In this document: positions 3,244-61,911 of the stretch, in pieces
Layout of the letters: every line of letters begins with the position of its first letter
Position numbering within the stretch: position 1 is the first letter of the stretch
Assembly: GCA_037178675.1 (NCBI GenBank)
Contig: JAYMGJ010000460.1
Location: 50,677-114,676, forward strand
Direction: 5' to 3'
DNA length: 64,000 bases
Origin: Scleroderma bovista
Taxonomy: Eukaryota; Basidiomycota; Agaricomycetes; Boletales; Sclerodermataceae
Made by a program: the position numbers and the translations under genes
Notes under the pieces: generated by a model
Database searches by the model: none
What the model saw: the letters and a program-made list of their open reading frames with translations, nothing else
What the model was told of the DNA's origin: nothing

Positions 3244-3312
3244 CTCTTGCCTGAAGGAAGAAGCAGCTTGTGGAAAACAGGATTTACCCTTACTTCAAAA
3301 GTTTCAAGTGAA

Positions 3313-3757: not shown

Positions 3758-4026
3758 TGTAGGGGGGGGGTTGGGTGTTGCTGCTGCCTCAGGTGAGGCA
3801 CGCTCGACCCAGGGGCTTCTGGAGGTCTGGCAGAGCTCCCAGGGACTGGGGAAACTAGAGGAAGTAGGGAGAGTAGAGGTGTTCAGTCACTCCAGGACTG
3901 AGATCAAACATATACAGAGGAAAGAGGGAAGTTTCTTAGTAAGCTAAGTACAAGCCTACATAGCTAAGGTAAGAATCCAGTATCAGTACTACCAATTCTA
4001 CACCTAGAGACAGGACTGTCTCTACA
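3758..4026 (+). repeat. 5' LTR of the TRIM-like element
   Basis: 269-bp copy, TGTAGGGGGG at the start and CTCTACA at the end; inserted within the gag-like frame. Confidence 0.85.
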
Positions 4027-5077: not shown

Positions 5078-5347
5078 TGTAGGGGGGGGGTTGGGTGTTG
5101 CTGCTGCCTCAGGTGAGGCACGCTCGACCCAGGGGCTTCTGGAGGTCTGGCAGAGCTCCCAGGGACTGGGGAGACTAGAGGAAACTAGGGAGAGTAGAGG
5201 TGTTCAGTCACTCCAGGACTGAGATCAAACATATACAGAGGAAAGAGGGAAGTTTCTTAGTAAGCTAAGTACAAGCCTACATAGCTAAGGTAAGAATCCA
5301 GTATCAGTACTACCAATTCTACACCTAGAGACAGGACTGTCTCTACA
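5078..5347 (+). repeat. 3' LTR of the TRIM-like element
   Basis: 270-bp copy of 3758-4026 with one substitution and a small local change near 5176-5190; followed by the gcgc duplication. Confidence 0.85.
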
Positions 5348-12515: not shown

Positions 12516-12875
12516 ACATGAGTGGGTGTGGAATGTGGACTTCATATACTGTTTGTTAAACGTCAGCTGTGAATATCAAGGGAAAATAGAGAAGGGGTTT
12601 CCAGAGTCCAATTGACATACATGTGACCGTACCTTGTTCTTCTCAAAATGATGGACCAAATAAGGCCCTGAATGATAACAGGTCACACAACACTCGACCA
12701 TCACTGACAGGCGCAGTGCAGATGCATAGATTCCACTCACTTTGCCTGACCGTTCCATGTATATGCTCATTGATCTCCACCTGCATACATGTAGCAACTG
12801 CAGGACATGGGCTTTACAAACATATTGCAGAATGTGAGAGCACTATTGGCTACAGGTGGAAACGTGCATGGCCGC
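12516..12875. other. unassigned sequence left of the first 2.3-kb solo LTR
   Basis: No recognisable gene on either strand. The last four bases (ccgc, 12872-12875) are the left target duplication of the following LTR. Confidence 0.4.
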
Positions 12876-15217
12876 TGTCACGCACCAAACGTGTTTGGTA
12901 CTGTGGACATGGAGAAAGTTAGCCGATGAAACTAATGCGAAGAACGCACACCCAAGATCTGTTGAAAGATTGTCCCGACTTGAGGGATACAGACAACCCT
13001 CGCTATCCATATCACGCAAAGTCATGACTATCCTTATGCGAAGGATGAATACAAGCTTGTCATAGCCATCTATCGCACAAGAATGACTATCCTGGAGCAA
13101 GAGATGAATGCCATCGTCTGGCAGTCATCCCTCGCACAAGAACCGCCAAGAAGCAGAAGAATCCAAGGATTGATGATCATTTCAGTATGAGAGAGGAATG
13201 CAACCTACTGCAGTCCAACTCCCATACCAGAACAACCAAAGAAGCAGAAGAAACGATAGAGAAACAAAGGAGAAAAGGAAGAATCATTTTTAGCGCCCAA
13301 ATGTCAAATTTAGGCGCCCAGTGCCGGCATTCCGATATTTTGAATAGCTCCGCCATTTTTGAAGCTATCAATCATGTGACTATACCATCATGGAGCCTAG
13401 ACCGTGGTCTATCTGCCTGTCAAGTTCCGACGTAAATCCGTTCATTTCCCACGGAGATATTCCACCCGCAATCCAGACACCCACTTCATCACTCACTATG
13501 GAGTCCGCATTTTCTCTGGAACGTTTCTCCGCTATTGCAGCAGACCTCAACTATGTCCTGCTCTTGGGACAGCCTCTCCCTGAGCTCCTGTGTACTGTCT
13601 GGTACATATCTTCCCAGCCTTCTCCCTCAGTCCCTCTCGTTCTCGGTCAGCGCGTTCTCCTCGTCAGTCCTGCGTCGCGCACATACTTTGGTCGTCTCAA
13701 GTCTATCGTTAGACTTGAAAATTCATACCTGGTCGTCTCTGTGTCTCCTGAGTCCTCTGCATATGGTCCTTTCATCCCAGAGTCCTGTCACATCCATCTC
13801 CCTCTATCATTCATCTCGCTTCCCTGGACACGTCGAATCCGCTACTTGCGATTCTCTTCCCTGCTATCCTGCAACAAACACGAATGAAACAGTGCTCTAG
13901 AACCCTTCTTAGGAGCCCTAATAGAGTACAGAACCTTCCCCTTACTGCTCAAGGGAAGACTGCACTTCGGGAGCACCAAATTTCGCGTTTTTGCTCTACA
14001 GAAGCTCAATCCAAGGGATTTGTGACACTCTGTGACCAGCTGTGACTCTACTTGTCATTCCAGGCCCCCTGACACTGCTCTTCTGGTCGGATCAATTCTT
14101 TTATTATCCCCCAGCCACTCCCATCAGTGGCACTGCTTCAGAAGCTCATCTCCAGATCTAAAGTTCAATAAATCATAGGTTGTGCTTCCCTTCTTTCTGA
14201 GTCACACAGAGTCACTCTGGCTCACTCTGACTCACTCTGCTGCGCATTATTCATCCCCTCTTGGCATTACTAATCCCCATTACTCCCCTTACCAATCACT
14301 TACCAATCATCCTTCAAATCATGCTTATCATGCTGCTTATCAATTCATGACTCATGCCCCTATGATTCATATGCATTATGTCATCGCATATGCTCATTTA
14401 GCTTCGATCTACTCATCCCATGCTTTCTCCCCCTCTCTTTTGGGCCCCATGCAATGATTTTTCCATATTCTTGGTTATACACCCCTTTTTACCTATGTTT
14501 TTGCTCTTTCCCTTGGCTCAGCAGCTTGTTCAGGCTCTCCCCATCGATGACTCAGCCTGATTACACTGCTTATCAATCGCTTACCAATTTCTTACCAATC
14601 TCTTACCAAGCACTTAGTCATTTGTGCTTACAGGGCCACAGCCCCTCCTGTATATAAACCAGCAGCCAAAGGCTGCAAGGAAGTGTCTGCTTCCCCCTCA
14701 ATAAAGCGACCACATTCTCTCTCCCTCACTGTCTATAAGCTCTATCTCTGTCTTTGGACTTGTAGGTCACTCAGTGCTGGCCTAAAGCTCCTATATTGTT
14801 GTTTATCAGATATATCTTGTATCTGATCATTTCTCTAGGCTCAAGCGCAGTCTAGCATCACTGTCCACTCTATCCCATCACTGTCCATCGCATTCTTGAA
14901 GCAGGAACTGTCCCCTTGCTTCCCCTCTGCTCCATCACTGCTGTTACACCCCTGTCATCAATCTATCATCGCTTTTCTATCCCAGGACTCTTCCTAACCA
15001 CTGTGGTAGGCTGAAGAGGAGTCAATACCATCCCCAGTCGCTTCCATCCCCATCAGAAGCCCTTCCCTTCCCTCCTGCATCCTGCCTGAAGGCGTGCAGC
15101 ACATCCCCCTGAGGAGATTAAATACCAGAAACGCAAAGGAAGACCACCACTCGCATATTGCTGTCATTTGGTGTTGGTTGTTGGTTGTTCTGACCTCTTC
15201 CCTCACTTAGGCGCACA
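12876..15217 (+). mobile_element. 2.34-kb solo LTR, family S1, plus orientation
   Basis: Begins TGTCACGCACC and ends TTAGGCGCACA, with ccgc duplicated on both sides (12872-12875, 15218-15221). A TATA-like tgtatataaacc lies at about 14650 and aataaag at about 14700, as expected for an LTR with U3, promoter and polyadenylation signal. Nearly the same sequence recurs at 29439-31781 (inverted) and, broken by insertions, at 17242-28392 (inverted). A diverged subfamily S2 occurs at 19193-21262 and 42082-43462. No internal retroelement genes are attached, so this is read as a solo LTR of a long-LTR, probably gypsy-type, element. It carries an ORF upstream of its TATA box. Confidence 0.8.
13390..13887 (+). 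CDS. ORF inside the S1 LTR, conserved between LTR subfamilies
   Basis: A 165-codon frame upstream of the LTR's own TATA box. The core from about residue 38 (FSLERFSAIAADL, LLLGQPLPEL, VPLVLGQRVLLVSPASRTYF) is repeated in the other S1 copies (23737-24183 and 30769-31266, minus strand) and, at about 77 percent identity by hand, in S2 (19704-20117). Over 72 aligned codons (13612-13827 against 19839-20054) I count 9, 5 and 23 differences at codon positions 1, 2 and 3, a pattern expected for a selected coding sequence. No known domain is seen; the segment PLVLGQRVLLVS suggests beta strands. Translation has not been shown and no host function is implied. Confidence 0.45.
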   Translation: MEPRPWSICLSSSDVNPFISHGDIPPAIQTPTSSLTMESAFSLERFSAIAADLNYVLLLGQPLPELLCTVWYISSQPSPSVPLVLGQRVLLVSPASRTYFGRLKSIVRLENSYLVVSVSPESSAYGPFIPESCHIHLPLSFISLPWTRRIRYLRFSSLLSCNKHE

Positions 15218-17241: not shown

Positions 17242-17781
17242 TGTGTGCCTAAGTGAGGGAAGAGGTCAGAACAACCAACAACCAACACCAAATGACAGCA
17301 ATATGCGAGTGGTGGTCTTCCTTTGCATTTCTGGTATTTAATCTCCTCAGGGGAATGTGCTGCACGCCTTCAGGCAGGATGGAGGAGGGAAGGGAAGGGC
17401 TTCTGATGGGGATGGAATGCGACTGGGGATGGTATTGACTCCTCTTCAGCCTACCACAGTGGTTAGGAAGAGTCCTGGGATTGAAGAGTGATGATTGATT
17501 GATGACAGGGGTGTAACAGCAGTGATGGAGCAACAGGGAAGCAAGGGCACAGTTCCTGCTTCAAGAATGCGATGGACAGTGATGGGATAGAGTGGACAGT
17601 GATGCTAGACTGCGCTTGAGCCTAGAGAAATGATCAGATACAAGATATATCTGATAAACAGCAATATAGGAGCTTTAGGCCAGCACTGGGTGACCTACAA
17701 GTCCAAAGACAGAGAGGGAGCTTATAGACAGAGGGGGAGAGTGAATGTGGTCGCTTTATTGAGGGGGAAGCAGACACTTCC

Positions 17782-17977
17782 TTTTGTTAGATGGCTCATG
17801 CACAGGGAACTAGCTAGCTCAGAGGCAAACTCAGTGATTCATCTTGGAACACTGAGGTGAAAGGAATCCTCGAATGGATGAAAATAGTCCATGCTTACGT
17901 AAGGATGCTCGTCGCACCAATAAGGAAACTATCAGTAAGTACCAAAGAATGGTAGTGATCGAGTAGGAATTTCAACA
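17782..17977 (-). repeat. 3' LTR of copia family A element
   Basis: 196 bp, minus-strand sequence TGTTGAAATTCC...; follows TSD cttcc. A purine-rich tract (gtcgagtgggtg on minus) adjoins it at 17978-17989. Confidence 0.88.
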
Positions 17978-19192
17978 CACCCACTCGACGAGTAGTCCTT
18001 TAGTAGAAGGGTATAGTATAGGTTTGCATACCTATGATATAGAAAATGAATGGTATAATGCACCCACTCAATGTGCGATGCTTGAGTCCATTGCAAAACT
18101 CGCACGTGTGGCAGTGCCATCCATGCTTTGATAAGCGGTGGTGTGCGTGTTGGTTGCGGTGTCTGCTTTGGTAGTGGTAAGATTGGTGATGGAGGCGCTT
18201 GGCGGATTGTCCGTCTTGATCGCGCTGTGGTCAGACGGATTTTCGACTTCTTCCAACGAATGAGCAGGGGGTCGAACACATAATATATTAGGTGTGACCG
18301 TGGACCAGAGGTCACGACGATCGAATGTGTTGCAGTGCGTGGTGAGTCCCTTTGTGCTGCATTGCGCACTGGCTGTGAGAGACGGGTCACATGACTCCGT
18401 TGCAGCCTTTGCATTGCTATAGTCAACACTGCAGCTCTTGTTGCTGTCCATTTCGACTGGACAAGGTGAGTCTTTGATTCTGTTTGCTTTAGCTGACCTT
18501 TTTCTCCTTTTATTGTTCTTTTACAGCCATCTTTACAGGTCTCCAGGTCGTTGCAGTGCGAATACCCGTTTTGGCCGCAAGTTGGCCCTCTCAAGTCATC
18601 CATTTGGCCTGTAGGAGGCACGATTCGAGTTGGCGGATCGAGCAGTCGGTTCCGGACCCTTTGGGAGGTATGTCCGTCACCATCCATCCGCTTTTCATCC
18701 CCTCTAACCTCCATTTCGATCTTCTTGTCTCCAAACTCGAGTTTGGGGGTTGAGTTGCCTTGATGGCGCGATCTGTCTTGATCGGATCGATTGGATGGCT
18801 TTGCTAACTCGTTTACAGCGTCCTCTTGCCGTTTCAACTCGGGAGCTTGGGTCTTAGAGCCCTCAGAGTTCTCAGCACTCGTTGGCACCCTGAGGTTGGC
18901 CTTTTTGCTTGTAGCAGGCGCGTTTTGAGTCAGCAGCTCGAGCGGTTGATATGGGGCCCCTTTGATAGGTATGTCCCTCGTCATTCCTCTGTTTGTCGTC
19001 GCTTCTGACGTCCGTTTCGATTCCCTTGCCTCCAAAATCAATTTTGGCGGTCAAGTCGCCTTGGTGGCGCGATCTGGCTTGATCGGATGGAACGGATGCA
19101 TTGGCTGACCCGTTTACAGTGTCCTTTTGACGTTTCCAAGCAGGTACTCGAGTGGTGGGCCCGTCTGCATCCTCCACAGCACTCATTGGCGC
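17978..19192 (-). pseudogene. modular repeat coding region of copia family A (part 1)
   Basis: Minus-strand frames, one open for 369 codons (17932-19041), contain two tandem modules of about 290-300 bp (about 18600-18885 and 18886-19192). Each has Q-x-P-A/E-x-K-RQ, S-x-R-S/P-S-DQ-x-R-SRHQG, a K-x-E/D-FG motif and a GHT-QR motif. A third module lies beyond the S2 LTR at 21267-21575. The module style is hydrophilic, without catalytic motifs; it resembles the repeat-rich protein of the element at 2919. The last about 15 codons of the open frame run into the LTR. No function can be assigned. Confidence 0.45.
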
Positions 19193-21262
19193 TGTCACGC
19201 ACCAAAGAGGTTTGGTACAGTGGACATGGAAGATAATGCCTATATTGAATGATCCTTATGTGAAGGATAAGCACGACGGATCCTCATCATAGCCATCTAT
19301 CGCACAAGAAGACTATCCTGATGTGAGAGATGAATGCCAATGCAGACAGTCATCTATCGCACAAGAACCGCCAAGAAGCTGAAGAAACTGAAGGAATAAT
19401 GTCAATTGTGGTATGAGAAAGGAATGCACACGTCTGCAGTCCAACTCCCATACCAGAACGATCAAAGAAGCTGAAGAATTGATGGAGAAACGAAGGAGAA
19501 AGAGAAGAAATGATTTTTAGCGCCCAAATGTCATTTTTAGGCGCCCAGTGCCAGCATTCCGATATTTTGAATAGCTCCATCGTTTCTGAAGCTATCAGGC
19601 ATGTGACTATACTGTCAGAGAGCCTAGAACGTGGTCTATCTGCCTGTCAAGTTCCGATGCAAATCTGTTCATTTCCCATGGAGATATTCCCCCTGCAATC
19701 CAGATGTTCGCTTCATCGCTCACTATGGAGTCCGTATTTTCTCTGGATCATTTCTCTGCTATTGCTGCAGATCTCCACTATGTCCTGCTCTTAGGACAGC
19801 CTCTCCCAGAGTTCCCGTGCACTGCCTGGCACATATCTTCCCAGCCTGCTCCCTCAGTCCCTCTCGTTCTCGGTCAGCGCATTCTCCTCGTCAGTCCTGC
19901 GTCAAGGACGTACTTTGGTCATCTTAGGTCTATTGTCAAGCTTGAGAAGTCTTCTCTGGTCATCTCTGTGTCCCCTGAGCCCTCAGCCTATGGTCCCTTC
20001 CTCCCAGATACTTGCCATGTCCATCTTCCTCTGTCGTTTGTCTTGCTTCCCTGGATGCATCGAATTCAATACTCTATCCACTTCCCTACTTTCAGACGAC
20101 GTCCCCCAGCACCATGACAGTTATTCCCCCACTTTATAGTGCTATTAGGAAGAAGAACCCTCTCTCGTTCTTTCCCAGAAGAGAGCCTGTCAAGGGAGCC
20201 CATGGTTGCACTTCAGCGGCACTAGAACACATGCACTATACCTTAGTGTATGCTGACCCCCCAAAAGACCTCTGGACCCCTGGTACCCTTCTTGTGGCTG
20301 TTTTGTCTCGGATCAATCCCCCTATTAATCTCAGATCTTCCCCATTGTTGTCCCATCAAACTCCTGATGGTACATAGCCCCCCATCAAACTTCTTAGGCT
20401 GTGCATCAATGACTCCTTCTGCTGTGCAGTGACTCATCCCTTGCTTACTGATGCTCTCTTGTCATCATTATTACTCAGCTGATGACTCACTCCCTTACCA
20501 ATCAATCTTGTCATGCAGCTTACTCATTCCTTTACTCAGCAGCTTATTCATGCTTCCTATGCTTACTCATTCCTGCTTATCCCTTGCTTACTGATCGCTT
20601 ACAAACCCCTTACAAACCCCTTACCAATCCCTTACCAATCCTTGACAAATTCTGCTTACTCCCTTCTCTTTTTGTACTTTAATGCTGTGCCCCCCCCCAT
20701 GTATTTAAACCCCTGGGCTCAGCCCAGTAAAAAAGACCCAATTGCACGAAATTATCCCTCTCTCAGACTCTCTCAGTCAGTATCCCTTCAGTCTTTGAGT
20801 CCTTGTAGGCTTCAGTGAAGGTCTAAAGGCTCAATATTGTCAAGTTTATCCAAGTTATTCAAGATCTATTCTTTATACTAGGCTCAAGCAGAGTCTAGGC
20901 TTCATACCAGTCAATCTTCCTCGCCTCTGGACATCAGAGGCATCTCTGCCCCTTTGCTGCACCAATCTCTAGGTGTAGTATCACTGTTTCAGTCTCAGTC
21001 AACCCAATCCCCACTTTGACACTTCCTAGGCTTTAGGAAGAGTCCAGACCCCTATCCCCTTCATCTTCTATTACTCCTGTACCCCAGGAGTATCCTGCAT
21101 CATTGTCTGCATCACCCTGTTGGTGTAGATCCCCTTCCCCCCTCCTCAGCACATCCTCTCTGGACACCACAGAGGTAAACCACCACTCGCACATATTCGT
21201 AGTCCTTTGTTGGTGTTGTGTTTGGGTTATTACTCCAACCCAAATCCACACTTTGACTCACA
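19193..21262 (+). mobile_element. 2.07-kb solo LTR, subfamily S2
   Basis: TGTCACGCACC...GACTCACA, flanked by gcgc and gtgc (one mismatch), inserted between repeat modules of copia A. Diverged from S1 but collinear with it. A TATA-like tgtatttaaacc occurs near 20699 and the 3' third carries tandem cttacaaacccctta-type words. A 5'-truncated S2 copy lies at 42082-43462. Confidence 0.8.
19704..20117 (+). CDS. ORF inside S2 LTR, homologous to the S1 LTR ORF
   Basis: 137 codons with the shared core FSLDHFSAIAADL, LLLGQPLPEF, VPLVLGQRILLVSPASRTYF and AYGPFLPD. Changes from S1 are mostly conservative and fall mostly at third codon positions. The C-terminus differs from S1, so only the core of about 115 residues looks conserved. 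No known domain. Confidence 0.45.
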   Translation: MFASSLTMESVFSLDHFSAIAADLHYVLLLGQPLPEFPCTAWHISSQPAPSVPLVLGQRILLVSPASRTYFGHLRSIVKLEKSSLVISVSPEPSAYGPFLPDTCHVHLPLSFVLLPWMHRIQYSIHFPTFRRRPPAP

Positions 21263-22900: not shown

Positions 22901-23736
22901 CTTCCTTGCAGCCTTTGGCTGCTGGTTTATATACAGGAGGGGCTGTGGCCCTGTAAGCACAAATGACTAAGTGCTTGGTAAGAAATTGGTAAGCAATCAA
23001 TAAGCAGTGTAATCAGGCTGAGTCATCAATGGGGAGAGCCTGAACAAGCTGCTGAGCGAAGGGAATGAGCAAAAACATAGGTAAAAAGGGGTGCATAATC
23101 AAGAATATGGAAAAATCATTGCATGGGGCCCAAAAGAGAGGGGGGGAAAGCATGGGATGAGTAGATCAAAGCTAAATGAGCATATGTGATGACATAATGC
23201 ATATGAATCATAGGGGCATGAGTCATGAATTGATAAGCAACATGATAAGCATGATTTGAAGGATGATTGGTAAGTGATTGGTAAGGGGAGTAATGGGGAT
23301 TAGTAATGCCAAGAGGGGATGAATAATGCGCAGTAGAGTGAGTCAGAGTGAGCCAGAGTGACTCTGTGTGACTCAGACAGAAGGGAAGCACAACCTGTGA
23401 TTTATTGAACTTTAGATCTGGAGATGAGCTTCTGAAGCAGTGCCACTGATGGGAGTGGCTGGGGGATAATAAAAGAATTGATCCAACCAGAAGAGCAGTG
23501 TCAGGGGGCCTGGAATGACAAGTAGAGTCACAGCTGGTCAAAGAGTGTCACAAATCCCTTGGATTGAGCTTCTGTAGAGCAAAAACGTGAAATTTGGTGC
23601 TCCTGAAGTGCAGTCTTCCCTTGAGCAGTAAGGGGAAGGTTCTGTACTCTATTAGGGCTCCTAAGAAGGGTTCTAGAGCACTGTTTCATTTGTGTTTGTT
23701 GCAGGATAGCAGGGAAGTGAAATGTGAATAGCGGAT

Positions 23737-24183
23737 TCAACGTGTCCAGGGAAGCGAGATGAATGATAGAGGGAGATGGATGTGACAGGACTCTGGGATG
23801 AAGGGACCATATGCAGAGGACTCAGGAGACACAGAGACAACCAGGTATGAATTTTCAAGTCTAATGATAGACTTGAGACGACCAAAGTACGTGCGTGACA
23901 CAGGACTGACGAGGAGAACGCGCTGACCGAGAATGAGAGGGACTGAGGGAGCAGGCTGGGAAGATATGTACCAGACAGTACACAGGAGCTCAGGGAGAGG
24001 CTGTCCCAAGAGCAGGACATAGTTGAGGTCTGCTGCAATAGCGGAGAAACGTTCCAGAGAAAATGTGGACTCCATAGTGAGTGATGAAGTGGGTGTCTGG
24101 ATTGCGGGTGAAATATCTCCGTGGGAAATAAACGGATTTACGTCGGAACTTGACAGGCAGATAGACCACGGTCTAGGCTCCAT
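23737..24183 (-). CDS. S1 LTR ORF, second copy, C-terminally shortened
   Basis: 148 codons on the minus strand, nearly identical to the frame at 13390-13887 up to ISLPWTR, where a stop ends it 17 codons early. Lies in the middle piece of the interrupted S1 LTR, just left of the fold-back insertion. Confidence 0.4.
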   Translation of the reverse strand: MEPRPWSICLSSSDVNPFISHGDISPAIQTPTSSLTMESTFSLERFSAIAADLNYVLLLGQPLPELLCTVWYISSQPAPSVPLILGQRVLLVSPVSRTYFGRLKSIIRLENSYLVVSVSPESSAYGPFIPESCHIHLPLSFISLPWTR

Positions 24184-24258
24184 GATGGTATAGTCACATG
24201 ATTGATAGCTTCAAAAATGGCAGAGCTATTCAAAATACACCTAAGTGACACCCTGTGA

Positions 24259-24310
24259 CCTACTAACTAGTAACATGGTCACACCCCTGTCAATGTTACT
24301 AGTTAGTAGG
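24259..24310. repeat. subterminal hairpin of the fold-back element (left arm)
   Basis: Perfect 18-bp stem, cctactaactagtaacat (24259-24276) with its complement at 24293-24310, and a 16-base loop. The mirror copy lies in the right arm at about 27854-27905. Such subterminal structure could be a transposase recognition feature; this is inference. Confidence 0.7.
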
Positions 24311-24464
24311 GATAATCGGATTTGCAGCACTTTAGCACTTTCAGCAGCACTCAGCTGTTGACTTCGAAAATTTCGGAAGTATAGAACACAGCCACACCTA
24401 AATTAGAAGGAAGCCTCTATACCATAGGGGGTGATGGACCCTGTTTGGCCAAACACAGCCACTA

Positions 24465-24835
24465 TTCCAAAAAAGGAAATAGGGTGATCTAGATACCATT
24501 GGACTGCAATTTTCAACCTCTACGCAGCCACCATGATGGCATGATGCCATAATGACATCCAAAAAAGGTAATAGAGTGATATGGGTGCCATCAGACTGCA
24601 ATTTTTGACCTCTACACAGCCATCATCATGGCATGATGCCATAATGACATCCAAAAAAGGTAATAGGGTGATATGGGTACCATCAGACTGCAATTTTCAA
24701 CCTCTACACAGCCACCATGATGGCATGATGCCATAATGACATCCAAAAAAGGTGATAGAATGATATGGGTACCATCAGACTGCATTTTTCAATCTCTACA
24801 TAGCCACCATGATGACATGATGACATAATAATATT
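24465..24835. repeat. 92-bp tandem subrepeats in the left arm, 4 copies
   Basis: Units begin aaaaaaggtaatagggtgat and include ccatcagactgcaattttca. Four units are seen here against five in the right arm (about 27238-27700). The difference of one unit points to slippage or unequal exchange after the palindrome formed. Confidence 0.8.
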
Positions 24836-27800
24836 TAGAGGTGTAATATTTGTAATATGTGGAATAGGGGCTATTCTCAGATGCTATTATCATGCTTCAG
24901 TGTCTTACTAAAAGTCATAGTCACAAATGAGAGGAATCCAAACATATCTTACATAAACAATTCATTAAGATTTGATGGAGCTATGACCAAAATAAATTTT
25001 GAGACCCAGCACAAAAATTTTTGTTCAAGGTACCATCATGTAGCCATATGTTTGAGGAATCCATTCATATGTTATCTACTCAATCAACCTCCATTTAGAT
25101 GAGATATAAGCAAAACATTTTCTTTAACCAACACATGAGTGAACTTTTAGCAGGCCGTCTTCTGCCTTCCTGTGCATCATCGCTGGCCCATATGCAATGT
25201 ACATAGTGTTCTACAAGCCATATTAGTATATAAGACAACACATAGGTGTTTATTTTAGTGTATAAGGACCTCAGGATAAATGGTGAATATTTTAGGGGTA
25301 AATACAAAAAAGTGTCTGCATTTTTGATATATTTGACATATTGACTTGGAAGCTACATCCCCTTCAAGGGGTCATATGTGCTCACAACATATTATCACTG
25401 CTTGACATGGAGTGGGCCCTCTGAGATGCTGACTCATGTTCTTCTCCTACTCATATATCACCATGGCAGGCCATTGACAGAGACAGTGGTGCCTATTGGA
25501 TGGCCTAGAGTGGTGGTACTATACCATGTCCATATGGGCATCAAATATATTGCCCATATAACTGCTACAAGATGAGCAATTAAATAAATCGCATTTTTAC
25601 AACAATAGGGGCTCTATGGGCTCCCAGACTAGGTATTGTCAATCTGACTATCTCAGAAGCTGGGAGGCATCATATAGTATCTACTATAATACCCTCAGAT
25701 CAATACTAAAGTTTGGTGAAGAGGGGGAATGAAAACAACATTCAAAAGGCATGGGAAAATACCTCAAAAATGTGGAGACTTGCAAAACATATGAAACAGT
25801 TGTCATATTACACAACACACAGAACTTGGCACTCTACAAATGATGTCAATGAGTTACTGACATGTCATAAGGCTCATTAGACATATATTAGATACTGGTT
25901 AGAAGTGCAGGTCATGTCAAGTGCTACCTTGGTGATAAGAGTCATGCACACTGTAGTATTGATATGCCACAGTCATACTACTGGCACATTTTCGCATTTT
26001 TGACATTTCATTACTATTCACTTATTAGACTCATTGTATACTATCCTTTTATTAACACTGATGAAATGTCAAAAATGCGAAAATGTGCCAGTAGTATGAC
26101 TGTGGCATATCAATACTACAGTGTGCATGACTCTTATCACCAAGGTAGCACTTGACATGACCTGCACTTCTAACCAGTATCTAATATATGTCTAATGAGC
26201 CTTATGACATGTCAGTAACTCATTGACATCATTTGTAGAGTGCCAAGTTCTGTGTGTTGTGTAATATGACAACTGTTTCATATGTTTTGCAAGTCTCCAC
26301 ATTTTTGAGGTATTTTCCCATGCCTTTTGAATGTTGTTTTCATTCCCCCTCTTCACCAAACTTTAGTATTGATCTGAGGGTATTATAGTAGATACTATAT
26401 GATGCCTCCCAGCTTCTGAGATAGTCAGATTGACAATACCTAGTCTGGGAGCCCATAGAGCCCCTATTGTTGTAAAAATGCGATTTATTTAATTGCTCAT
26501 CTTGTAGCAGTTATATGGGCAATATATTTGATGCCCATATGGACATGGTATAGTACCACCACTCTAGGCCATCCAATAGGCACCACTGTCTCTGTCAATG
26601 GCCTGCCATGGTGATATATGAGTAGGAGAAGAACATGAGTCAGCATCTCAGAGGGCCCACTCCATGTCAAGCAGTGATAATATGTTGTGAGCACATATGA
26701 CCCCTTGAAGGGGATGTAGCTTCCAAGTCAATATGTCAAATATATCAAAAATGCAGACACTTTTTTGTATTTACCCCTAAAATATTCACCATTTATCCTG
26801 AGGTCCTTATACACTAAAATAAACACCTATGTGTTGTCTTATATACTAATATGGCTTGTAGAACACTATGTACATTGCATATGGGCCAGCGATGATGCAC
26901 AGGAAGGCAGAAGACGGCCTGCTAAAAGTTCACTCATGTGTTGGTTAAAGAAAATGTTTTGCTTATATCTCATCTAAATGGAGGTTGATTGAGTAGATAA
27001 CATATGAATGGATTCCTCAAACATATGGCTACATGATGGTACCTTGAACAAAAATTTTTGTGCTGGGTCTCAAAATTTATTTTGGTCATAGCTCCATCAA
27101 ATCTTAATGAATTGTTTATGTAAGATATGTTTGGATTCCTCTCATTTGTGACTATGACTTTTAGTAAGACACTGAAGCATGATAATAGCATCTGAGAATA
27201 GCCCCTATTCCACATATTACAAATATTACACCTCTAAATATTATTATGTCATCATGTCATCATGGTGGCTATGTAGAGATTGAAAAATGCAGTCTGATGG
27301 TACCCATATCATTCTATCACCTTTTTTGGATGTCATTATGGCATCATGCCATCATGGTGGCTGTGTAGAGGTTGAAAATTGCAGTCCGATGGTACCCATA
27401 TCACCCTATTACCTTTTACGAATGTCATTATGCCATCATGCCATCATGGTGGCTGTGTAGAGGTTGAAAATTGCAGTCTGATGGTACCCATATCACCCTA
27501 TTACCTTTTTTGGATGTCATTATGGCATCATGCCATGATGATGGCTGTGTAGAGGTCAAAAATTGCAGTCTGATGGCACCCATATCACTCTATTACCTTT
27601 TTTGGATGTCATTATGGCATCATGCCATCATGGTGGCTGCGTAGAGGTTGAAAATTGCAGTCCAATGGTATCTAGATCACCCTATTTCCTTTTTTGGAAT
27701 AGTGGCTGTGTTTGGCCAAACAGGGTCCATCACCCCCTATGGTATAGAGGCTTCCTTCTAATTTAGGTGTGGCTGTGTTCTATACTTCCGAAATTTTCGA

Positions 27801-28402
27801 AGTCAACAGCTGAGTGCTGCTGAAAGTGCTAAAGTGCTGCAAATCCGATTATCCCTACTAACTAGTAACATTGACAGGGGTGTGACCATGTTACTAGTTA
27901 GTAGGTCACAGGGTGTCACTTAGGTGTCAAAATATCGGAATGCCGGCACTGGGCGCCTAAATTTGACATTTGGGCACTAAAAATGATTCTTCCTTTTCTC
28001 CTTTGTTTCTCTATCATTTCTTCTGCTTCTTTGGTTGTTCTGGTATGGGAGTTGGACTGCAGTAGGTTGCATTCCTCTCTCATACTGAAATGATCATCAA
28101 TCCTTGGATTCTTCTGCTTCTTGGCGGTTCTTGTGCGAGGGATGACTGCTGGACGTCAGCAGTCATCTCTTGCTCCAGAATAGTCATTCTTGTGTGATAG
28201 ATGGCTACAACGAGCTTGTATTCATTCTTCGCATAAGGATAGTCTTGACTTTGCGTGATATGGATAGCGAGGGCTGTCTGTATCCCTCAAGTCGGGACAA
28301 TCTTTCAACAGATCTTGGGTGTGTTCTTCACATTAATTTCATCGGCTAACTTTCTCCATGTCCACAGTACCAAACATGTTTGGTGTGTGACACCATCGAG
28401 AC

Positions 28403-28595
28403 TGTCAGAATATATGGCTGCTACGTGGCAAACTTACAAGACTAATTACAGTTATTAGTTTTGATATATTAGCTGTTCTACCTACAAGATAAATAGTTCG
28501 TAGTCGTACCTTGTATACCCATCGCGTTTGGACCTGGTTCGCACCCACGCACCCATCGTGGTCACCCCGATCGACTCAGCGCGCGAATTCTAACA
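28403..28595 (+). repeat. 5' LTR of the gag-only element
   Basis: 193 bp. The 14 bases after it (caaacgcgatatcc) do not match the primer site used by the other LTR families in this window. Confidence 0.85.
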
Positions 28596-29438
28596 CAAAC
28601 GCGATATCCTTTGTCGTTGTGCGTGTTGCTTTGCAGCTGTTGACCCCCTGTTGTTGACCGTTCTCGCCGTCGTATCGTCGTCGTACCGTCGTTCTCTTGC
28701 CGTTGTAACCGCCATTTGGGGCCGAAGCCAAATCGTCGTCGTCGTCTCCGCCGTACCGTTTCCCCTGTCAAACCCCTGCTGTTATCTGTTGCAGCCAAAT
28801 CACCGCTGTCGTCACGTGTCACACATCACAGCCACAGATCTCGCGCCATGCCAAACTTGTTGCTGCATTTCGCGAACTTGAATGAATCTAACTATGCGGA
28901 ATGGTCGTTGTACATGCGATCTACCTTGATTAAGAAAGGATTATGGAAAGTTGTTGAGGGATCAGAGACTCGCCCACTCGGCTCCCCCAATTCAAAAGCT
29001 GTCAAAGCATTTGAGCACCGCCAAGCCGAAGCTCATGCTGAGATCGTCCTCCGCCTCGAACCGTCGCAGCTGCCGCACACACACTCCACCGACCCCCATG
29101 TCCTCTGGGAAGAGCTCCAGCGCATGCATCGTGCCCAGGGCTTTGCCACGCGCATGACATTCTGTCGAAGGTTTAACACGATGACTAAGCGTGCTGACCA
29201 ATCAATGGGCAGTTGGATAGCTGATGTCCAGCAAGCCGCGTTCCGCTTGAAAGAAGTCGGATATATTGCTACGGATGAGGACAAGATACTCGTCCTTACT
29301 CAAGGCCTCCCCCCGTCCTATGATCCATTCATTATCTCCCTTGACGCCGCCATTGCTAATGGTACTACTGCTGATAATGCATCCATCTCACTTGAGGTAG
29401 TCAAGGCACGCTTACTAAATGAAGAATCACGTCAGCGC

Positions 29439-31781
29439 TGTGCGCCTAAGTGAGGGAAGAGGTCAGAACAACCAACAACCAACACCAAATGACAGCAATA
29501 TGCGAGTGGTGGTCTTCCTTTGCGTTTCTGGTATTTAATGTCCTCAGGGGGATGTGCTGCACGCCTTCAGGCAGGATGCAGGAGGGAAGGGAAGGGCTTC
29601 TGATGGGGAATAGATGCGACTGGGGATGGTATTGACTCCTCTTCAGCCTACCACAGTGGTTAGGAAGAGTCCTGGGATAGAAGAGCGATGATAGATTGGC
29701 AACAGGGGTGTAACAGCAGTGATGGAGCAACAGGGAAGCAAGGGGACAGTTCCTGCTTCAAGAATGCGATGGACAGTGATGGGATAGAGTGGACAGTGAT
29801 GCTAGACTGCGCTTGAGCCTAGAGAAATGATCAGATACAAGATATATCTGATAAACAGCAATATAGGAGCTTTAGGCCAGCACTGAGTGACCTACAAGTC
29901 CAAAGACAGAGATAGAGCTTATAGACAGTGAGGGAGAGTGAATGTGGTCGCTTTATTGAGGGGAAGCAGACACTTCCTTGCAGCCTTTGGCTGCTGGTTT
30001 ATATACAGGAGGGGCTGTGGCCCTGTAAGCACAAATGACTAAGTGCTTGGTAAGAGATTGGTAAGAAATTGGTAAGTGATTGATAAGCAATGTAATCAGG
30101 CTGAGTCATCGATGGGGAGAGCCTGAACAAGCTGCTGAGCCAAGGGAAAGAGCAAAAACATAGGTAAAAAGGGGTGTATAACCAAGAATATGGAAAAATC
30201 ATTGCATGGGGCCCAAAAGAGAGGGGGAGAAAGCATGGGATGAGTAGATCGAAGCTAAATGAGCATATGCGATGACATAATGCATATGAATCATAGGGGC
30301 ATGAGTCATGAATTGATAAGCAGCATGATAAGCATGATTTGAAGGATGATTGGTAAGTGATTGGTAAGGGGAGTAATGGGGATTAGTAATGCCAAGAGGG
30401 GATGAATAATGCGCAGCAGAGTGAGTCAGAGTGAGCCAGAGTGACTCTGTGTGACTCAGAAAGAAGGGAAGCACAACCTATGATTTATTGAACTTTAGAT
30501 CTGGAGATGAGCTTCTGAAGCAGTGCCACTGATGGGAGTGGCTGGGGGATAATAAAAGAATTGATCCGACCAGAAGAGCAGTGTCAGGGGGCCTGGAATG
30601 ACAAGTAGAGTCACAGATGGTCACAGAGTGTCACAAATCCCTTGGATTGAGCTTCTGTAGAGCAAAAACGCGAAATTTGGTGCTCCCGAAGTGCAGTCTT
30701 CCCTTGAGCAGTAAGGGGAAGGTTCTGTACTCTATTAGGGCTCCTAAGAAGGGTTCTAGAGCACTGTTTCATTCGTGTTTGTTGCAGGATAGCAGGGAAG
30801 AGAATCGCAAGTAGCGGATTCGATGTGTCCAGGGAAGCGAGATGAATGATAGAGGGAGATGGATGTGACAGGACTCTTGGATGAAAGGACCATATGCAGA
30901 GGACTCAGGAGACACAGAGACGACCAGGTATGAATTTTCAAGTCTAACGATAGACTTGAGACGACCAAAGTATGTGTGCGACGCAGGACTGACGAGGAGA
31001 ACGCGCTGACCGAGAACGAGAGGGACTGAGGGAGAAGGCTGGGAAGATATGTACCAGACAGTACACAGGAGCTCAGGGAGAGGCTGTCCCAAGAGCAGGA
31101 CATAGTTGAGGTCTGCTGCAATAGCGGAGAAACGTTCCAGAGAAAATGCGGACTCCATAGTGAGTGATGAAGTGGGTGTCTGGATTGCGGGTGGAATATC
31201 TCCGTGGGAAATGAACAGATTTACGTCGGAACTTGACAGGCAGATAGACCACGGTCTAGGCTCCATGATGGTATAGTCACATGATTGATAGCTTCAAAAA
31301 TGGCGGAGCTATTCAAAATATCGGAATGCCGGCACTGGGCGCCTAAATTTGACATTTGGGCGCTAAAAAATGATTCTTCCTTTTCTCCTTTGTTTCTCTA
31401 TCGTTTCTTCTGCTTCTTTGGTTGTTCTGGTATGGGAGTTGGACTGCAGTAGGTTGCATTCCTCTCTCATACTGAAATGATCACCAATCCTTGGATTCTT
31501 CTGCTTCTTGGCGGTTCTTGTGCGAGGGATGACTGCCAGACGATGGCATTCATCTCTTGCTCCAGGACAGTCATTCTTGTGTGATAGATGGCTATGACAA
31601 GCTTGTATTCATCCTTCGCATAAGGATAGTCATGACTTTGCGTGATATGGATAGCGAGGGTTGTCTGTATCCCTCAAGTCGGGACAATCTTTCAACAGAT
31701 CTTGGGTGTGCATTCTTCGCATTAGTTTCATCGGCTAACTTTCTCCATGTCCACAGTACCAAACACGTTTGGTGCGTGACA
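29439..31781 (-). mobile_element. 2.34-kb S1 solo LTR, minus orientation, inside the gag-only element
   Basis: TGTGCGCCTAAG...GGTGCGTGACA, with gcgc on both sides (29435-29438, 31782-31785). Very close to the copy at 12876-15217 in length and sequence, including the TATA-like motif and the internal ORF. Confidence 0.85.
30769..31266 (-). CDS. S1 LTR ORF, third copy
   Basis: 165 codons on minus, differing from the frame at 13390-13887 by only a few residues (for example SHTYF for SRTYF, and IQESCH for IPESCH). Same position relative to the LTR's TATA box. Confidence 0.42.
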   Translation of the reverse strand: MEPRPWSICLSSSDVNLFISHGDIPPAIQTPTSSLTMESAFSLERFSAIAADLNYVLLLGQPLPELLCTVWYISSQPSPSVPLVLGQRVLLVSPASHTYFGRLKSIVRLENSYLVVSVSPESSAYGPFIQESCHIHLPLSFISLPWTHRIRYLRFSSLLSCNKHE

Positions 31782-32069
31782 GCGCGCCGCCCAACCGGTA
31801 ACGAGCCCTGACCCTGTCGCCCTTGCTGTCACCACTATCGCTTTGAAGCTGCGCCACCCACTCGAGCAGATCACCTGTTTCCATTGCGGAGAAAAAGGTC
31901 ATTACCAGATCAATTGCCCGAAACAGAAAGTGGAAGAGAAGGGCACTGCCGCCGCCATCTTCGAAGAAGAAGAACAGTCTTGGTGAAGTCGCGGGATATT
32001 TTCTCCTTTTTTGTTCTCGTGTCTCCCTGTTTCTTTCGTACTTACTGTCTTGTTTCGTTTGTGGGAGAG

Positions 32070-32262
32070 TGTCAGAATATATGGCCGCTACGTGGCAAAC
32101 TTACAAGACTAATTACAGTTATTAGTTTTGATATATTAACTGTTCTACCTACAAGATAAATAGTTCGTAGTCGTACCTTGTATACCCATCGCGTTTGGAC
32201 CTGGTTCGCACCCACGCACCCATCGTGGTCACCCCGATCGACTCAGCGCGCGAATTCTAACA
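32070..32262 (+). repeat. 3' LTR of the gag-only element
   Basis: 193 bp, a couple of differences from 28403-28595 (ggccgc against ggctgc; attaactg against attagctg). Followed by the gagac duplication. Confidence 0.85.
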
Positions 32263-32428
32263 GAGACAAGATCCTCCAAGTCTAAACACCCAGGAAGTCA
32301 TCATATAATGTGAATGCTACACCGTGATCGTGTGACATACCAGCTCACTCTGGTCGACTGCCGAGAATGTTATGGTAAAAGTCGTATCCAGTGAGTTTGT
32401 GAGTCACTACTGTTGCATAGGATACCAT
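32263..32428 (-). pseudogene. dus1: Dus1 pseudogene, 5' exons
   Basis: Minus strand from the ATG at 32428: KLTGYDFYHNILG, the usual start of Dus1, then VDQSEL. After a probable intron (32340-32282, gtatgt...tttag) comes WRILSR, the part that joins QYGAQ at 17241. Between HNILGS and VDQSEL the expected eight or so residues (the PxYVVAPM region) are missing. The loss also changes phase, giving a stop, so about 26 bp were probably deleted. The joining exon is broken by the gag-only element (TSD gagac) and, ten bases on, by the S1 LTR. This placement proves that the two distant Dus1 parts were one gene. Confidence 0.8.
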
Positions 32429-57089: not shown

Positions 57090-57714
57090 CAGTGTGAGTT
57101 TTGTGCATAACGCAGAACACGAAGCTTGTGTGATCCCATAGATGTTTTGTTGTTGAGCCCTGAGGAGCCCACCCATCATTTCCATGAGCGATACATGGGT
57201 AGTAGAGACAAACGTACAGTTTTGATGTTCAATACTATTCGTATACTCGTATTGTCCGATGCAGAAGCAAGGTATGTCCCATCACTCAACCACGAGATGT
57301 CCGAGAGACCCTTTGTATGCCTGCTGAGGTTGCGGATTAGTTCGCCTGTGAAAGGCAACCATACTTTGATGACATGTCGCAAAACATATCACAAGACGTG
57401 AGCAACTCCATGCATACAAGAAACCCAAGCATACACAAAGAGCAGACACACCACAAGCAGCGAGGAGGCTCCCGTCAGGACTAAACTTGACTGCAGATAC
57501 ACACTGGGTATGTCCCCTGAATGTATGTTGCAATCTGTAATTTGATCGTTCGCACGGAGCAGCCTGGATGGTAGAAGTCTGGATTCTGTGCACTGGAAGG
57601 TGGCGGCAGCACTGTTGGGTGAGATTGAGCGGGTGGAGGTGTGGGTATTTGTGGGTCATCTTCGGTCGTCTGAGACGCATTATCGTTGTCGATTCGTCCA
57701 TTCACCTTAGGCAC
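57090..57714 (-). pseudogene. WDR5-like WD40 protein, 5' half
   Basis: WDR5 (Swd3) is the WD40 core subunit of SET1/COMPASS histone H3K4 methyltransferases. Minus strand from 57714: a Pro-rich N-terminus ending SSAQNPDFYHPG, then in a shifted frame NYRLQHTFRGHTQCVSAVKF and SPDGSLLAACG. After an intron-like gap (about 57478-57383) comes VIKVWLPFTGELIRNLSRHT, GLSDISWLSDGTYLASASDN and TSIRI. A second gap (gtacgt...cctcag, about 57218-57160) is followed by GSTTKHLWDHTSFVFCVMHK. The order and wording match the first three blades of WDR5. The frame shift in exon 1, a weak acceptor and an extra base pair after SIRI suggest a decayed copy, and the last blades are not found. Confidence 0.65.
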
Positions 57715-57734
57715 CAGTTTTCGGTGGCAATAGA

Positions 57735-57782
57735 GGTCTCTTAGATAGGTTTTTTTGTTGTGGGAAACCTATCTAAGAGACC
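57735..57782. repeat. perfect hairpin, 18-bp stem
   Basis: ggtctcttagataggttt (57735-57752) and its exact complement (57765-57782) around a 12-base loop, located between the divergent WDR5-like and KDZ genes. It may be a miniature inverted-repeat remnant or joined terminal repeats; no TSD was recognised. Confidence 0.75.
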
Positions 57783-58026
57783 AACCATCTGCACCAGATC
57801 TACCCAGCTGGCCCTGAATTTCCATTTTCTTGGCTGCCCGTCGGCAAATCCTCCTCATTACCTCCAGTATGCTGCCTCTGAGCCTCTATCAGCCCTCTGG
57901 AGACTTCCTACAGACCTCCCCCGATGACGGTCATCCATTCTCCCAGAGCCTCTCAAGCCATGTATTTATCATCAGTTTCATATGTTCTCACGACTTGTCC
58001 TTTCTTTTTCTTCCTGATCATATGCG

Positions 58027-61000
58027 ATGTCAGATCCCCGGCCTACTTGTTCATCACAAACCATCACAACCAGGGGGCTGGGTCGGCACTTCACCAGCCC
58101 TCAAAAGGTGCGGGACAAGAAGAAGAGCTGGATGACTGTGCCCATTCCAGGACATGCTTCTAAACGGCAGAAACTCCTTGATGAACTGCAACTTTTACTA
58201 GCAGCCCCTCCAGAACCCGAGCAGCTGCCAAGCAGCACCGTCATTGCTGCATCTCCGATCCTTTAGCCAGAGGACCTGCTCGAAGTGCCCCCAATGGAGC
58301 TGGAAGATTTGCTAGTCATGTCTGACAGTGAGGATGCGCCCCATGGTGCCACTGCACAGCATATTCGCACTACCCACCCTACTGCCAGGTCAATCTCTTC
58401 ATGTGCTGCCTGGAAGGCTCTTATCCCTACTATCGTCAACCCTTTCCTCAAGTACACGGCAGCAATGCTTCGCCAACCATTAATGGCCCTTGGCTCTCAG
58501 CTCTCTTCGTGTACATCAAGCTGTCAAGACCAAAAATTAACGGTGGTATTGTGTTTATTTTTTGACCGTAAGTAATTCAAACTCCAGCCGTTTCTCTACT
58601 CGTTAACAAACCGCCCCAGGTGTTGTGTCTATAGATATCTCCAGCTGTCTTTGTTCAACTCTCCCTCATGTGCTCATCTCCCATGGACTATTTCTGACTG
58701 CGCCAACTCAGCCACGGATGGCCGTATCCATCAAACTTCTTTCTCTCTTCCATGCAATTTTTGAGTGTTCATGCGACGCGACTCACACCCTCGCGGCTGC
58801 TCTCAGTACATACTATGCTAGGCGAGGCTTCCGCGTGATGGATCACAAAGTAAGTGACATTCATTGTCTCTTTATTCTCATCCCTGATTGTTGCATGCGG
58901 TAAGGGCCAGGCTGTGAGAGATCCATTCCGGCGCAGTCTCAGTCACGCTGCGCAGTGGTACAATATTGAAGTGGAAAAGCAGGTTGACAGCCTCATTCGG
59001 CAATGCTGACTTCTTGTCAAGCCCCCTATTGATCCCCTTTTGGCACCTTCCTCTTCCCCATTGCCCCCAACTGTGCAGCAGGACAGTCTATCCCAGGGTT
59101 CCTGTGCTGAACTTCTCATTCAACGGTGCCCAGCATGCTTTGGTGGCACATTGTTTGGGAGACTGCTCGATGTGGGCAGTGATATTCACGTTGCAATGGA
59201 CGGTAATTTTCATCACTGGCATTGGCACTCTGCAGGTGACTGCCCACAATTCTATGAACCAACTTACTTTATTCCAAAAGCACAGGTAGACACCATTGGG
59301 CGTCACATTGCCTGTGCCCGCCAACGTCGATCAAAACTGGCACCATCCGCAATACCCGACAAGGCCATTGACCAATGCGAGGCCTCATATGAGGCTGCAG
59401 ACAGCCAGAAGCAAAAAACAGCCATGGACAACTTTGATGACTCTGGAATAATGGCGCTCATTTGTCGTCATGACATACTGTTATTTTTGGCAAACATAGA
59501 CACGCCAGGCGAACAACAAAAGTATGGTGTTGCTCTCATTTTGCACCTTTTCTCCCTTCTTCTGTATCAAGCTAACGTTGTGGTGTTATATGACGTGGGC
59601 TGCGTTCTAGTTCACTCGCTCTCCCGGGTAAGTTTTCGTCCCATCAATTCTTTGTTCTAAAATGTTGTTGTTACAGTTTAATATCCTTGAACAACAGATC
59701 ATGTCTTGTCTTCACTTTGCAACCACTGCCATGCATGCGTATGGCCATGAATGGGCATGCCAGCTTGTTTACAACCCACACATTGCTTCTGGGTTGGGTT
59801 TATCTGACGGTGAAGGTACTGAGCGACTGTGGTCGCGATTCATTAAACTTATTGGGATTGAACGCGTATCATCCATAAGTTCGTGGTTTGTATTGATCTC
59901 TTTGCTAATCTTGCCTAGCGACAATGCCACATCTGGCTTCTTGATCGTCATGTGGCAACAGTCGGCTATGAAATGCGGCGTGAGCTCGGGGATTGGCTTA
60001 GGCGCCGCCTCAAAAAGGGCATAGGCGACCAAGGATCTGCGGCACAAGAAGTCCTTGACAACTGCAGCACGAGCGTTACGGAACTCCAGAAACAATGGAC
60101 TGAACAACGAGCGACTCAATTGTCCATCAGAGCATTTAAGTACTTATACTCAAATCACTCCTTTCCCATTAATGAATGTCCTTAGATGCACCTGCCAAGC
60201 TCAAGAAAGAGCTTGACACTGTGCTCACGCTGCAAGCCGACTTGGACAACAGCAATAAGGTGCTGAAACTGGCACGAGCGACTATCGAGAAAGGGAATGC
60301 GTCCCCTGGTATTATGGATGCGCTCGCGAGCCTTGAGCGCAGTCATGCGAGGCTCATGACCAAAGCTGAGGGCCTCTATTCGTCTCTCAACGTGCATGAC
60401 CAATTCCCAGAACTCAAAAATATCAGCCTCGACTTCATGCAGATACTACTGATGGCTCAGGACTTGAAGATAAATATTCGCAAGAGGGTGGTCGGCACTT
60501 TCTTTGAGTGGGACAAGCTCAACCATGCTGTTGGAAGAAAAGACAAGCCTCTGGGTGCGTCCCTGGCCACCCTTCATAGGACCCACCATCCAGGACATTT
60601 TTGTTGAAGTCACACGTGCACCCAGCGTAAACCGTCGACGAAGTGCGCACAAGACTGCAATCCATATTAGTGTAGACTTAGTAATAGTCCTCTTTAGAGT
60701 AGATGTTACATGTCACATGTCACACGTCACAGTCACATGTCACACTATTTGTTGCATATAAACAGCGTTCATCACTTATATAATATAACAGCTCTTAACC
60801 AGCTACCACTACCATCTCTGGTTGTGCACTCCACCCAACAGGTGAGTTGGAGTAGCAGTTCCTCTACGTATATAGGTATTGCTTCAACAATTTTTCGGTA
60901 CCAAGCTTCATCAACAGACATGGAAGGCGATTGGGAAACAGCAGCCTGCACTTACAGCAGCCATTCGCAAATACAACCATTTTTGTGAGCAGCTTTCACA

Positions 61001-61829
61001 GCTTTACGACCCGTCTTGGACGATTCCTTTGCCTTCCCTGCTACCCACGACACTCACCGACTTATGAAACAATCCAATGCTCATGCAAGACCTCTGGATC
61101 ACTCCCTCTGTGGGGGAGGTCCCTCGATGGCTCAAAGACACTGGCGTGCAAGATGGTATCTGTGCTCTCATCAAGACAGAACATTGTCTGGGTTTAGAAG
61201 CAGACAATATGTGTCGTTGGTATGGCTATGAACTCACTGCCATTCATGTCGCATTACGGCAATCTGAAAGTAAGTTCAGCCACCATCAGAAGTCTCTTTC
61301 TTAACTGACAATTTTCAGACAGCAACCATCATTTATTTTGAGACAGCGGCTCGAGGCTGTTTCCAAGCTACAGGAGCGATGGCCGACCACCCTAAGTTCG
61401 CCCTCTCGTTACACAAACCAGATCGAAGTTGCCACCTGGGCTGCTGAAACTATCACGGGAAACTCTCAGCCTTCCTTGTGGTGGCTACTGCCGGTCATTA
61501 TCAATGATCATGTTAATGATGCCAATGATGAGGAGATTTGGGGACTCACCGACATGCTAGGCACTGACCCTGTGCAACTTCCCCTTGACCCCGAACAGGT
61601 CGCGCTTTCAGATGTACTTGAAGTCACCCATTCTGATGATGAAGATGAGTTCAAGCTTGAAGCTGAAACACCATCCAAAGTAACAATGAATTGGGAGCTT
61701 CCAGAGGTAGGATGGATTGCTATTATTAGTCCCCGCTTCACATGGCTTTTGCAGGTAATAAATATTGACAGCAGATTTGACTTGGCAAAGGATGCCCATG
61801 TGCAAGCTATTATGACAACCGTAATATGA
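58027..61829 (+). pseudogene. KDZ-type (Kyakuja-Dileera-Zisupton) transposase
   Basis: Multi-exon plus-strand gene. Exon 1 from ATG 58027 has a Pro/Ser-rich N-terminus and ELEDLLVMSDSEDAPHG, with an in-frame TAG at 58264. Introns with clean borders lie at about 58570-58619 (gtaagt...ccag), 58850-58902 and 59629-59676. The catalytic core has D in AMDGNFHHWHWH (near 59200), D in VVLYDVGCVL (near 59590) and E in GLSDGEGTERLWSR (near 59815), with HAYGHEWACQLVYNP between, so the DDE set is kept. A long helical C-terminal part follows (LKKELDTVLTLQADL, LMAQDLKINIRKRV), then, after a solo LTR, KLHQQTWKAIGKQQP and the acidic end. In-frame TGA at about 59006 (after LIRQC, where Arg is expected). No flanking terminal inverted repeats were found, so the element's ends are unknown. 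Confidence 0.85.
60602..60889 (+). mobile_element. solo LTR of copia family C inside the KDZ gene
   Basis: TGTTGAAGTCAC...TTGCTTCAACA, 288 bp, TSD atttt (60597-60601, 60890-60894). It is the same LTR as 51538-51811 in opposite orientation, with an extra tandem ca-catgt block. It falls in what looks like a short intron between KPLG and TKLHQQ. Confidence 0.88.
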
Positions 61830-61911
61830 CCATCTGTCGATGGCTTCCCTTGACAGACTTTCCACCTGAGTGATACCAGTATATTGGCGTCTCCACAGGC
61901 CTGTCAAGACC

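Follow-up and report, generated by a model that had tools for sequence, protein, structure and literature searches.

A near-perfect fold-back transposon with KDZ-like ends in Scleroderma bovista and concerted arm changes in its palindromic relatives

Introduction

The KDZ transposons of Cryptococcus include KDZ1, described as an element of ∼11 kb with 241-bp terminal inverted repeats and 8-bp duplications on new insertions, and KDZ2 and KDZ3, for which duplications of 4 to 8 bp are given (PMC12810828). Zisupton and a Dileera lineage are also reported with 8-bp duplications, and Kyakuja with 7-bp duplications and without inverted repeats (PMC12730594). Galileo, of the P superfamily in Drosophila, is described as a fold-back element with long, internally repetitive arms that are 98 to 100% alike within a copy, a likeness for which conversion has been proposed; it makes 7-bp duplications, and the longest-armed copy in that account has arms of 1.26 and 1.24 kb at 95.2% identity (PMC3573991). 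Tetris of Drosophila virilis and Tm1 of root-knot nematodes are presented as fold-backs with tandem units in their arms (PMC4079207, PMC3169594), and in Tm1 the number of units is stated to differ between the two arms of one element (PMC3169594). Palindromes of sex chromosomes are reported to have arms that are >99% identical through arm-to-arm conversion (PMC8981503).

Here, we describe a fold-back element of the fungus Scleroderma bovista, found in a window of 64 kb (the whole stretch of DNA that was analyzed), together with its family, F1, and three related palindromic families, F2 to F4. Like KDZ transposons, F1 has 8-bp duplications, terminal inverted repeats, and ends shared with the KDZ elements of its genome, whereas the window element lacks a transposase and is nearly all inverted repeat. 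Given the 7-bp duplications of Kyakuja and its lack of inverted repeats, F1 does not look like Kyakuja. The fold-back form and the repetitive arms alike within a copy recall the published description of Galileo, which differs in superfamily, in the length of its duplications, and in having shorter and less identical arms. The arm-to-arm correction described for sex-chromosome palindromes, which are non-mobile and far larger, resembles what we read from the F2 and F4 palindromes. Tandem units in the arms are shared with Tetris and Tm1, but these are Mutator elements according to their authors, whose accounts, as far as consulted, describe no KDZ-like ends (PMC4079207, PMC3169594).

Results

Geometry and insertion site of the window element

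The element (positions 24238 to 27926; ∼3.7 kb) is almost wholly one inverted repeat (Table 1). The initial annotation had read it as a fold-back transposon and had given the lengths of both arms and the loop, which the arm alignment reproduced to the base. It had also named one extra 92-bp unit as the only difference between the arms. The aligned arms indeed contain no substitutions: they are perfect for 493 bp inward from the termini and for 1,326 bp outward from the loop, and as these stretches overlap, the sole arm difference is one such unit. Lower identity figures (98%; 3 differences in 1,183) result from the unit offset and from counting 7 loop bases as arm. The longest open reading frame (ORF) inside the element has 81 amino acids (minimum, 40 amino acids; table 11), in agreement with the earlier view that the element has no transposase of its own. 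GC content is 39% in the element versus 47.7% in the whole window, and the observed/expected CpG ratio is 0.12 in the left arm versus 0.49 in the rest of the window. Such a dearth of CpG would be expected after long exposure of the DNA to CpG methylation.

The exact 8-bp duplications reported at the outer ends are present, and the empty target site is visible within the window, as had been claimed. For this comparison, the two flanks of the element were joined computationally (128 bases) and set against three sites in the window; these lie in three related sequences, two of them inside copies that the initial annotation had listed by their starts. Related copies occur in both orientations (12873 to 15051, 17242 to 20074, 22968 to 24237, and 27927 to 32272), with one pair at 100% over 1,410 bp, and the palindrome is inserted in one of these several sequence copies. 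Elsewhere in the window, a frame on the minus strand (52562 to 53551) has reverse transcriptase and RNase H domains of a retroelement.

Table 1. Features of the window, in window coordinates
Feature	Position	Strand	Remarks
Left arm	24238..26011	+	1,774 bp; starts CACCTAAGTGACACCC
Loop	26012..26060		49 bp; homologous loop in family F2
Right arm	26061..27926	-	1,866 bp; left arm plus one extra 92-bp unit
Tandem 92-bp units, left arm	24466..24835	+	Limits approximate
Tandem 92-bp units, right arm	27237..27698	-	Limits approximate
Terminal 122 bp	24238..24359	+	75-83% alike to ends of element family L027-L031 (KDZ in L029)
Conserved non-coding core, left copy	25158..25860	+
Conserved non-coding core, right copy	26212..26914	-
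Target site duplication, left, 8 bp	24230..24237		TCAAAATA
Target site duplication, right, 8 bp	27927..27934		TCAAAATA
Empty target site in related sequence	31313..31320	+	10/128 mismatches versus joined flanks
Empty target site in related sequence	13336..13343	-	2/128 mismatches versus joined flanks
Empty target site in related sequence	19563..19570	-	20/128 mismatches versus joined flanks
KDZ transposon relic	57703..61901	+	Left end CACCTTAGGCACCAG is the end of family F4
KDZ transposase domain (PF18758) of relic	59184..59898	+	Two ORF pieces

Dispersed copies and palindromic relatives

A search of the 51.8-Mb assembly (850 contigs) located F1 ends or arms on contigs C160, C668, C237, and C579 and fragments on C191, C766, C809, C531, and C208. 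The copies on C160 and C668 have both ends and are flanked on each side by GAACTGAC and TAAATACT, respectively; perfect 8-bp duplications are present in all three two-ended F1 copies fetched (the window copy, L021, and L022). The terminus search suggested along with the initial annotation has thus yielded other two-ended copies, which contradicts an isolated inverted duplication. F1 copies diverge from one another by at most ∼5%. The remnant on C579 consists of only ∼217 bp of one arm, and the copy on C237 (L020, positions 3325 to 3884) has at its center a tip-plus-loop unit repeated three times in tandem with a period of ∼195 bp, which we read as a mark left by slippage, or by template switching, at the loop.

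Three more palindromic families contain the non-coding core of F1 (∼700 bp), with identities to the window copy of 79 to 82% in F2 and ∼64% in F3 and F4. Most core-bearing relatives are palindromic too, and some, such as L044, retain a single core arm. Palindromes of F3 can be 5 kb long or longer; for the one on C449 (L039, positions 175 to 5215), a possible flanking 9-bp repeat, TGTACTTGA, was seen by eye in this one copy. The F4 end CACCTTAGGCACCAG has 78 exact matches in the genome, among which we counted by hand 16 inverted pairs 1.8 to 2.3 kb apart, 2 of them homologues of two other pairs. Wider pairs on C235, C558, and C240 are read, from their coordinates only, as interrupted palindromes. 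At the five F4 insertion sites with both exact ends, four duplications are exact over 8 bp (L041, L042/L054, L055, and L058) and the fifth matches at 7 of 8 positions (L057, which is not a homologue of L058); L056, the homologue of L055, also shows 7 of 8. L043, without exact ends, was omitted from this count. The F2 homologues L035 and L037 have no recognizable target duplication.

The loops of F1 and F2 are homologous (76% over 236 bp spanning the loop). As this loop is common to families whose cores diverge by 18 to 21%, the ancestral palindrome is older than the families themselves.

We rejected a coding function of the core, as 10 comparisons between families gave no significant codon periodicity (lowest P = 0.053) and all six frames contain stops. 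A known RNA in the core was also rejected: all matches to miRNA precursor models fell below the family thresholds, and such subthreshold matches are expected of any perfect hairpin. Indels in the core are few (1 to 5 gap events per 83 to 258 substitutions), but in other elements from this genome we counted 0 to 9 gap events per 24 to 407 substitutions, and since the gap rate of the core is not unusual enough by this comparison, we do not claim a strong length constraint. Several of the rare arm indels in L021, L036, and L039 are exactly 10 bp long, about one helical turn, and are too few to judge. It is conceivable, though rather doubtful, that the core is an old, selected mobile module, i.e., a self-correcting palindrome that outlasts families and has moved between KDZ families with different ends because its mirror structure (as hairpin DNA or double-stranded RNA) benefits the element.

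Ends shared with KDZ elements

KDZ domains have at least 166 matches in the genome. A KDZ relic had been noted in the window, and it does contain a PF18758 domain (Table 1). KDZ had also been named as one possible mobilizer of the palindrome, an option now backed by termini shared with KDZ elements. The terminal 122 bp of F1 are ∼79% (75 to 83%) alike to the ends of a KDZ-bearing element family. In L029, an F1-type end precedes a PF18758 domain (positions 5432 to 5785) that has one in-frame stop. In L028, an inverted F1-type end lies downstream of an ORF that is 90% identical to the one following the KDZ domain of L029. This ORF, for which no Pfam match was found, recurs downstream of other KDZ domains (L011, L012, and L016 to L018), and the L028 and L029 ends align with each other over ∼700 bp, with an interruption. 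In another locus of the same element family, L027, a KDZ domain (159 to 560, plus strand) lies ∼3 kb from a TET/JBP oxygenase domain (3544 to 4095, minus strand). This neighborhood and the abundance of KDZ matches suggest a basidiomycete host.

For F4, the end CACCTTAGGCACCAG is the very start of the homology between the window relic and L045 (on C456), both of which contain a KDZ transposase domain, and the last ∼92 bp of F4 are 87 to 88% alike to these two elements. The right-hand limit given for the relic is where its match to L045 stops, and the right end is absent from view at both loci. Among the KDZ matches listed, those near F4 ends, assessed by eye, account for 2 of the 78 end sites, which is near chance (∼1 by our own estimate); the argument for F4 therefore rests on the homology that begins at the end. 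The start of the relic is 2 bp away from the end of a WD40-repeat frame (57282 to 57701, minus strand), and the insertion site may thus lie within or beside a gene of this kind.

The proposed search for an autonomous partner by its ends led to KDZ loci with one matching end each, and no locus shows both. L029 has the left end only, and L028, the left part of which is missing, has the right end only. A complete KDZ element on C196 was rejected since the 8 kb upstream, made up of a host gene and other sequence, contains no match to the other end. We therefore infer the KDZ partner from the shared termini, and a KDZ enzyme would act on F1- and F4-type ends in trans.

Duplications of 8 bp would also suit a mobilizer of the hAT or P kind, while Mutator-like elements make duplications of 9 to 11 bp, as opposed to the 8 bp of F1 and F4. 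Published fold-backs have mostly been assigned to Mutator, as stated in PMC4079207. In this genome, 81 matches to the hAT dimerization domain (PF05699) are listed, one of which lies on C596, 3.5 kb inward of an F4 end. However, none of these 81 is on C334, C196, C456, or C459, the contigs of KDZ-type elements with F1- or F4-type ends, and KDZ domains lie inside matching ends on C334, C456, and C459. On the basis of this hAT search and of the ends shared with KDZ elements, we regard a hAT, MULE, or P-type enzyme as an unlikely mobilizer in comparison with a KDZ enzyme. F1-like ends are also present at C8:95402 and C314:172736, with hAT matches ∼23 kb away at corresponding distances; the two look like a homologous contig pair.

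Arm identity within copies

Among the 11 copies having two full core arms, 9 have identical core arms in the compared columns; the arms of L037 (F2) differ at 2 positions and those of L041 (F4) at 5. (L019, L021, L022, L024, L038, and L044 are without a second full core arm and were omitted.) Five additional F4 copies were compared over columns 50 to 735, where the arms are identical in four and differ at 1 position in L056. Between copies, the core differs at 14 to 37 positions in F1, 7 to 18 in F2, and 9 to 15 in F4, with the diverged F2 relative L044 (68 to 72 core differences) omitted. The F3 copies L039 and L040 differ from each other at 1 of 624 positions, so F3 says little about correction. 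Over the outer 231 bp of F1, the three two-ended copies have 0, 0, and 1 arm differences.

Arm differences persist at the palindrome edges. The four F2 copies L034 to L037, from three insertion sites, have seven arm differences in common within the 30 bp beside the spacer, and the F4 copies have common arm differences at the outer and inner edges. Because differences there are common to several copies, the identity counts omit columns after 650 for F2 and F4 in the set of 11 and columns before 50 and after 735 in the later F4 set. Correction thus works within the paired arms and weakens toward the edges. These uncorrected edges fit correction that depends on pairing and do not fit wholesale resynthesis of one arm around the loop.

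The assembly of palindromes is difficult, and our analysis rests on assembled sequence, so fold-back reads or consensus polishing could in principle have made the arms identical. We consider such an artifact very improbable: the palindromes stop exactly at their termini, and at several sites they are bordered by distinct flanks and by duplications; the assembly has retained left/right differences, both at the edges and singly; and there are no Ns in the 64-kb window or in L009 to L038.

Concerted changes in homologous insertions

To examine correction in place, we used insertions that are found on two contigs with the same flanks, of which there are three pairs (C499/C267, C366/C205, and C829/C212). 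These homologues may be alleles or segmental duplicates. A site was counted as concerted when the two arms are alike within each homologue but differ between the homologues. The F2 pair L035/L037 has 11 concerted sites, 15 single-arm changes, and 7 edge differences (seven gapped columns were left uncounted), and L035 has a 1-bp deletion in both arms. The F4 pair L042/L054, which has the same duplication, shows 6 concerted sites, no single-arm changes, and 7 edge differences; the F4 pair L055/L056 shows 1 concerted site, 3 single-arm changes, and 9 common left/right differences. Over the three pairs, 18 concerted substitutions stand against 18 single-arm ones, and the latter are in excess in two pairs (15 versus 11 and 3 versus 1). 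Under independent mutation, the expected numbers of concerted sites are ∼0.05, 0.008, and 0.003, respectively (sum, ∼0.06).

Ten concerted states (6, 3, and 1 by pair) are absent from all other fetched copies, and one more occurs only in L044. Genome-wide privacy was examined for 5 of these 10 sites, using four exact patterns. Two neighboring sites of L035, covered by one pattern, occur in both arms of the L035 palindrome and nowhere else in the assembly; likewise, one site of L042 and one of L054 are each confined, genome-wide, to both arms of their own palindrome. The concerted site of L055/L056 is not private, as its 25-mer is also found on C44, C103, and C614, and with its sole concerted site shared in this way, the pair gives no proof. 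In both F2 and F4, changes younger than the separation of the homologues have thus come to be present in both arms.

That some concerted states, including that of L055/L056, are common to other copies would suit ectopic conversion, in which other copies convert whole palindromes, instead of exchange between arms. We judge this explanation to be quite unlikely, as the assembly contains no further instance of four concerted sites, which are spread over three palindromes. Private changes in both arms, for which the assembly offers no third copy as a donor, indicate correction in place, with no move to a new site. Concerted arms might also result from excision and subsequent repair off the sister chromatid.

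Of the nine concerted sites that are private among the fetched copies (site 689 excluded), seven changed to A or T, which gives no sign of GC-biased conversion, and we rejected this process.

The initial annotation had left two explanations for the uniform arms, recent formation and continuing correction of one arm by the other. If one arm had been copied from the other shortly before or during the latest transposition, there would have been too little time to diverge, and the zero substitutions between the window arms and the perfect target duplication are as expected under this scenario. Recent formation is contradicted for F2 and F4, in which homologues with the same flanks carry two-arm changes absent elsewhere in the assembly, and the loop common to F1 and F2 also speaks against it. 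Continuing correction is thus favored in these two families, and the window copy is compatible with both. For recent formation as the only cause, we see a low probability.

Discussion

The window element is most probably a non-autonomous fold-back transposon of the KDZ type, the arms of which are corrected against each other in place. We propose that a KDZ-type transposase, supplied by other elements, would cut and paste the palindrome and leave 8-bp duplications upon insertion. Only the outermost ∼122 bp resemble the ends of KDZ elements, and the rest of each arm is non-coding. Once inserted, the arms may pair, either as a hairpin or cruciform formed while the DNA replicates or across sister chromatids. 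Mismatches between the paired arms would then be corrected, with the result that a mutation in one arm is either removed or spread to the other. The window copy probably behaves like F2 and F4 in this respect. Correction may proceed by mismatch repair in the hairpin or by ordinary, recombinational gene conversion, and our data fit both alike.

Long-armed fold-backs are already known, as is arm likeness within copies from the published account of Galileo. No description of a KDZ fold-back was found in the parts of the open-access literature searched. Within these limits, the link to KDZ elements, the perfect and longer arms, the core common to families with different ends, and the comparison of homologous insertions appear to be new, and these elements add the KDZ group to those with fold-back members.

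Whether long palindromes persist through correction of their arms by mutual pairing has been studied mainly in large, single palindromes of sex chromosomes. The many small, dispersed palindromes of this genome, together with their homologous pairs, let correction be counted against mutation.
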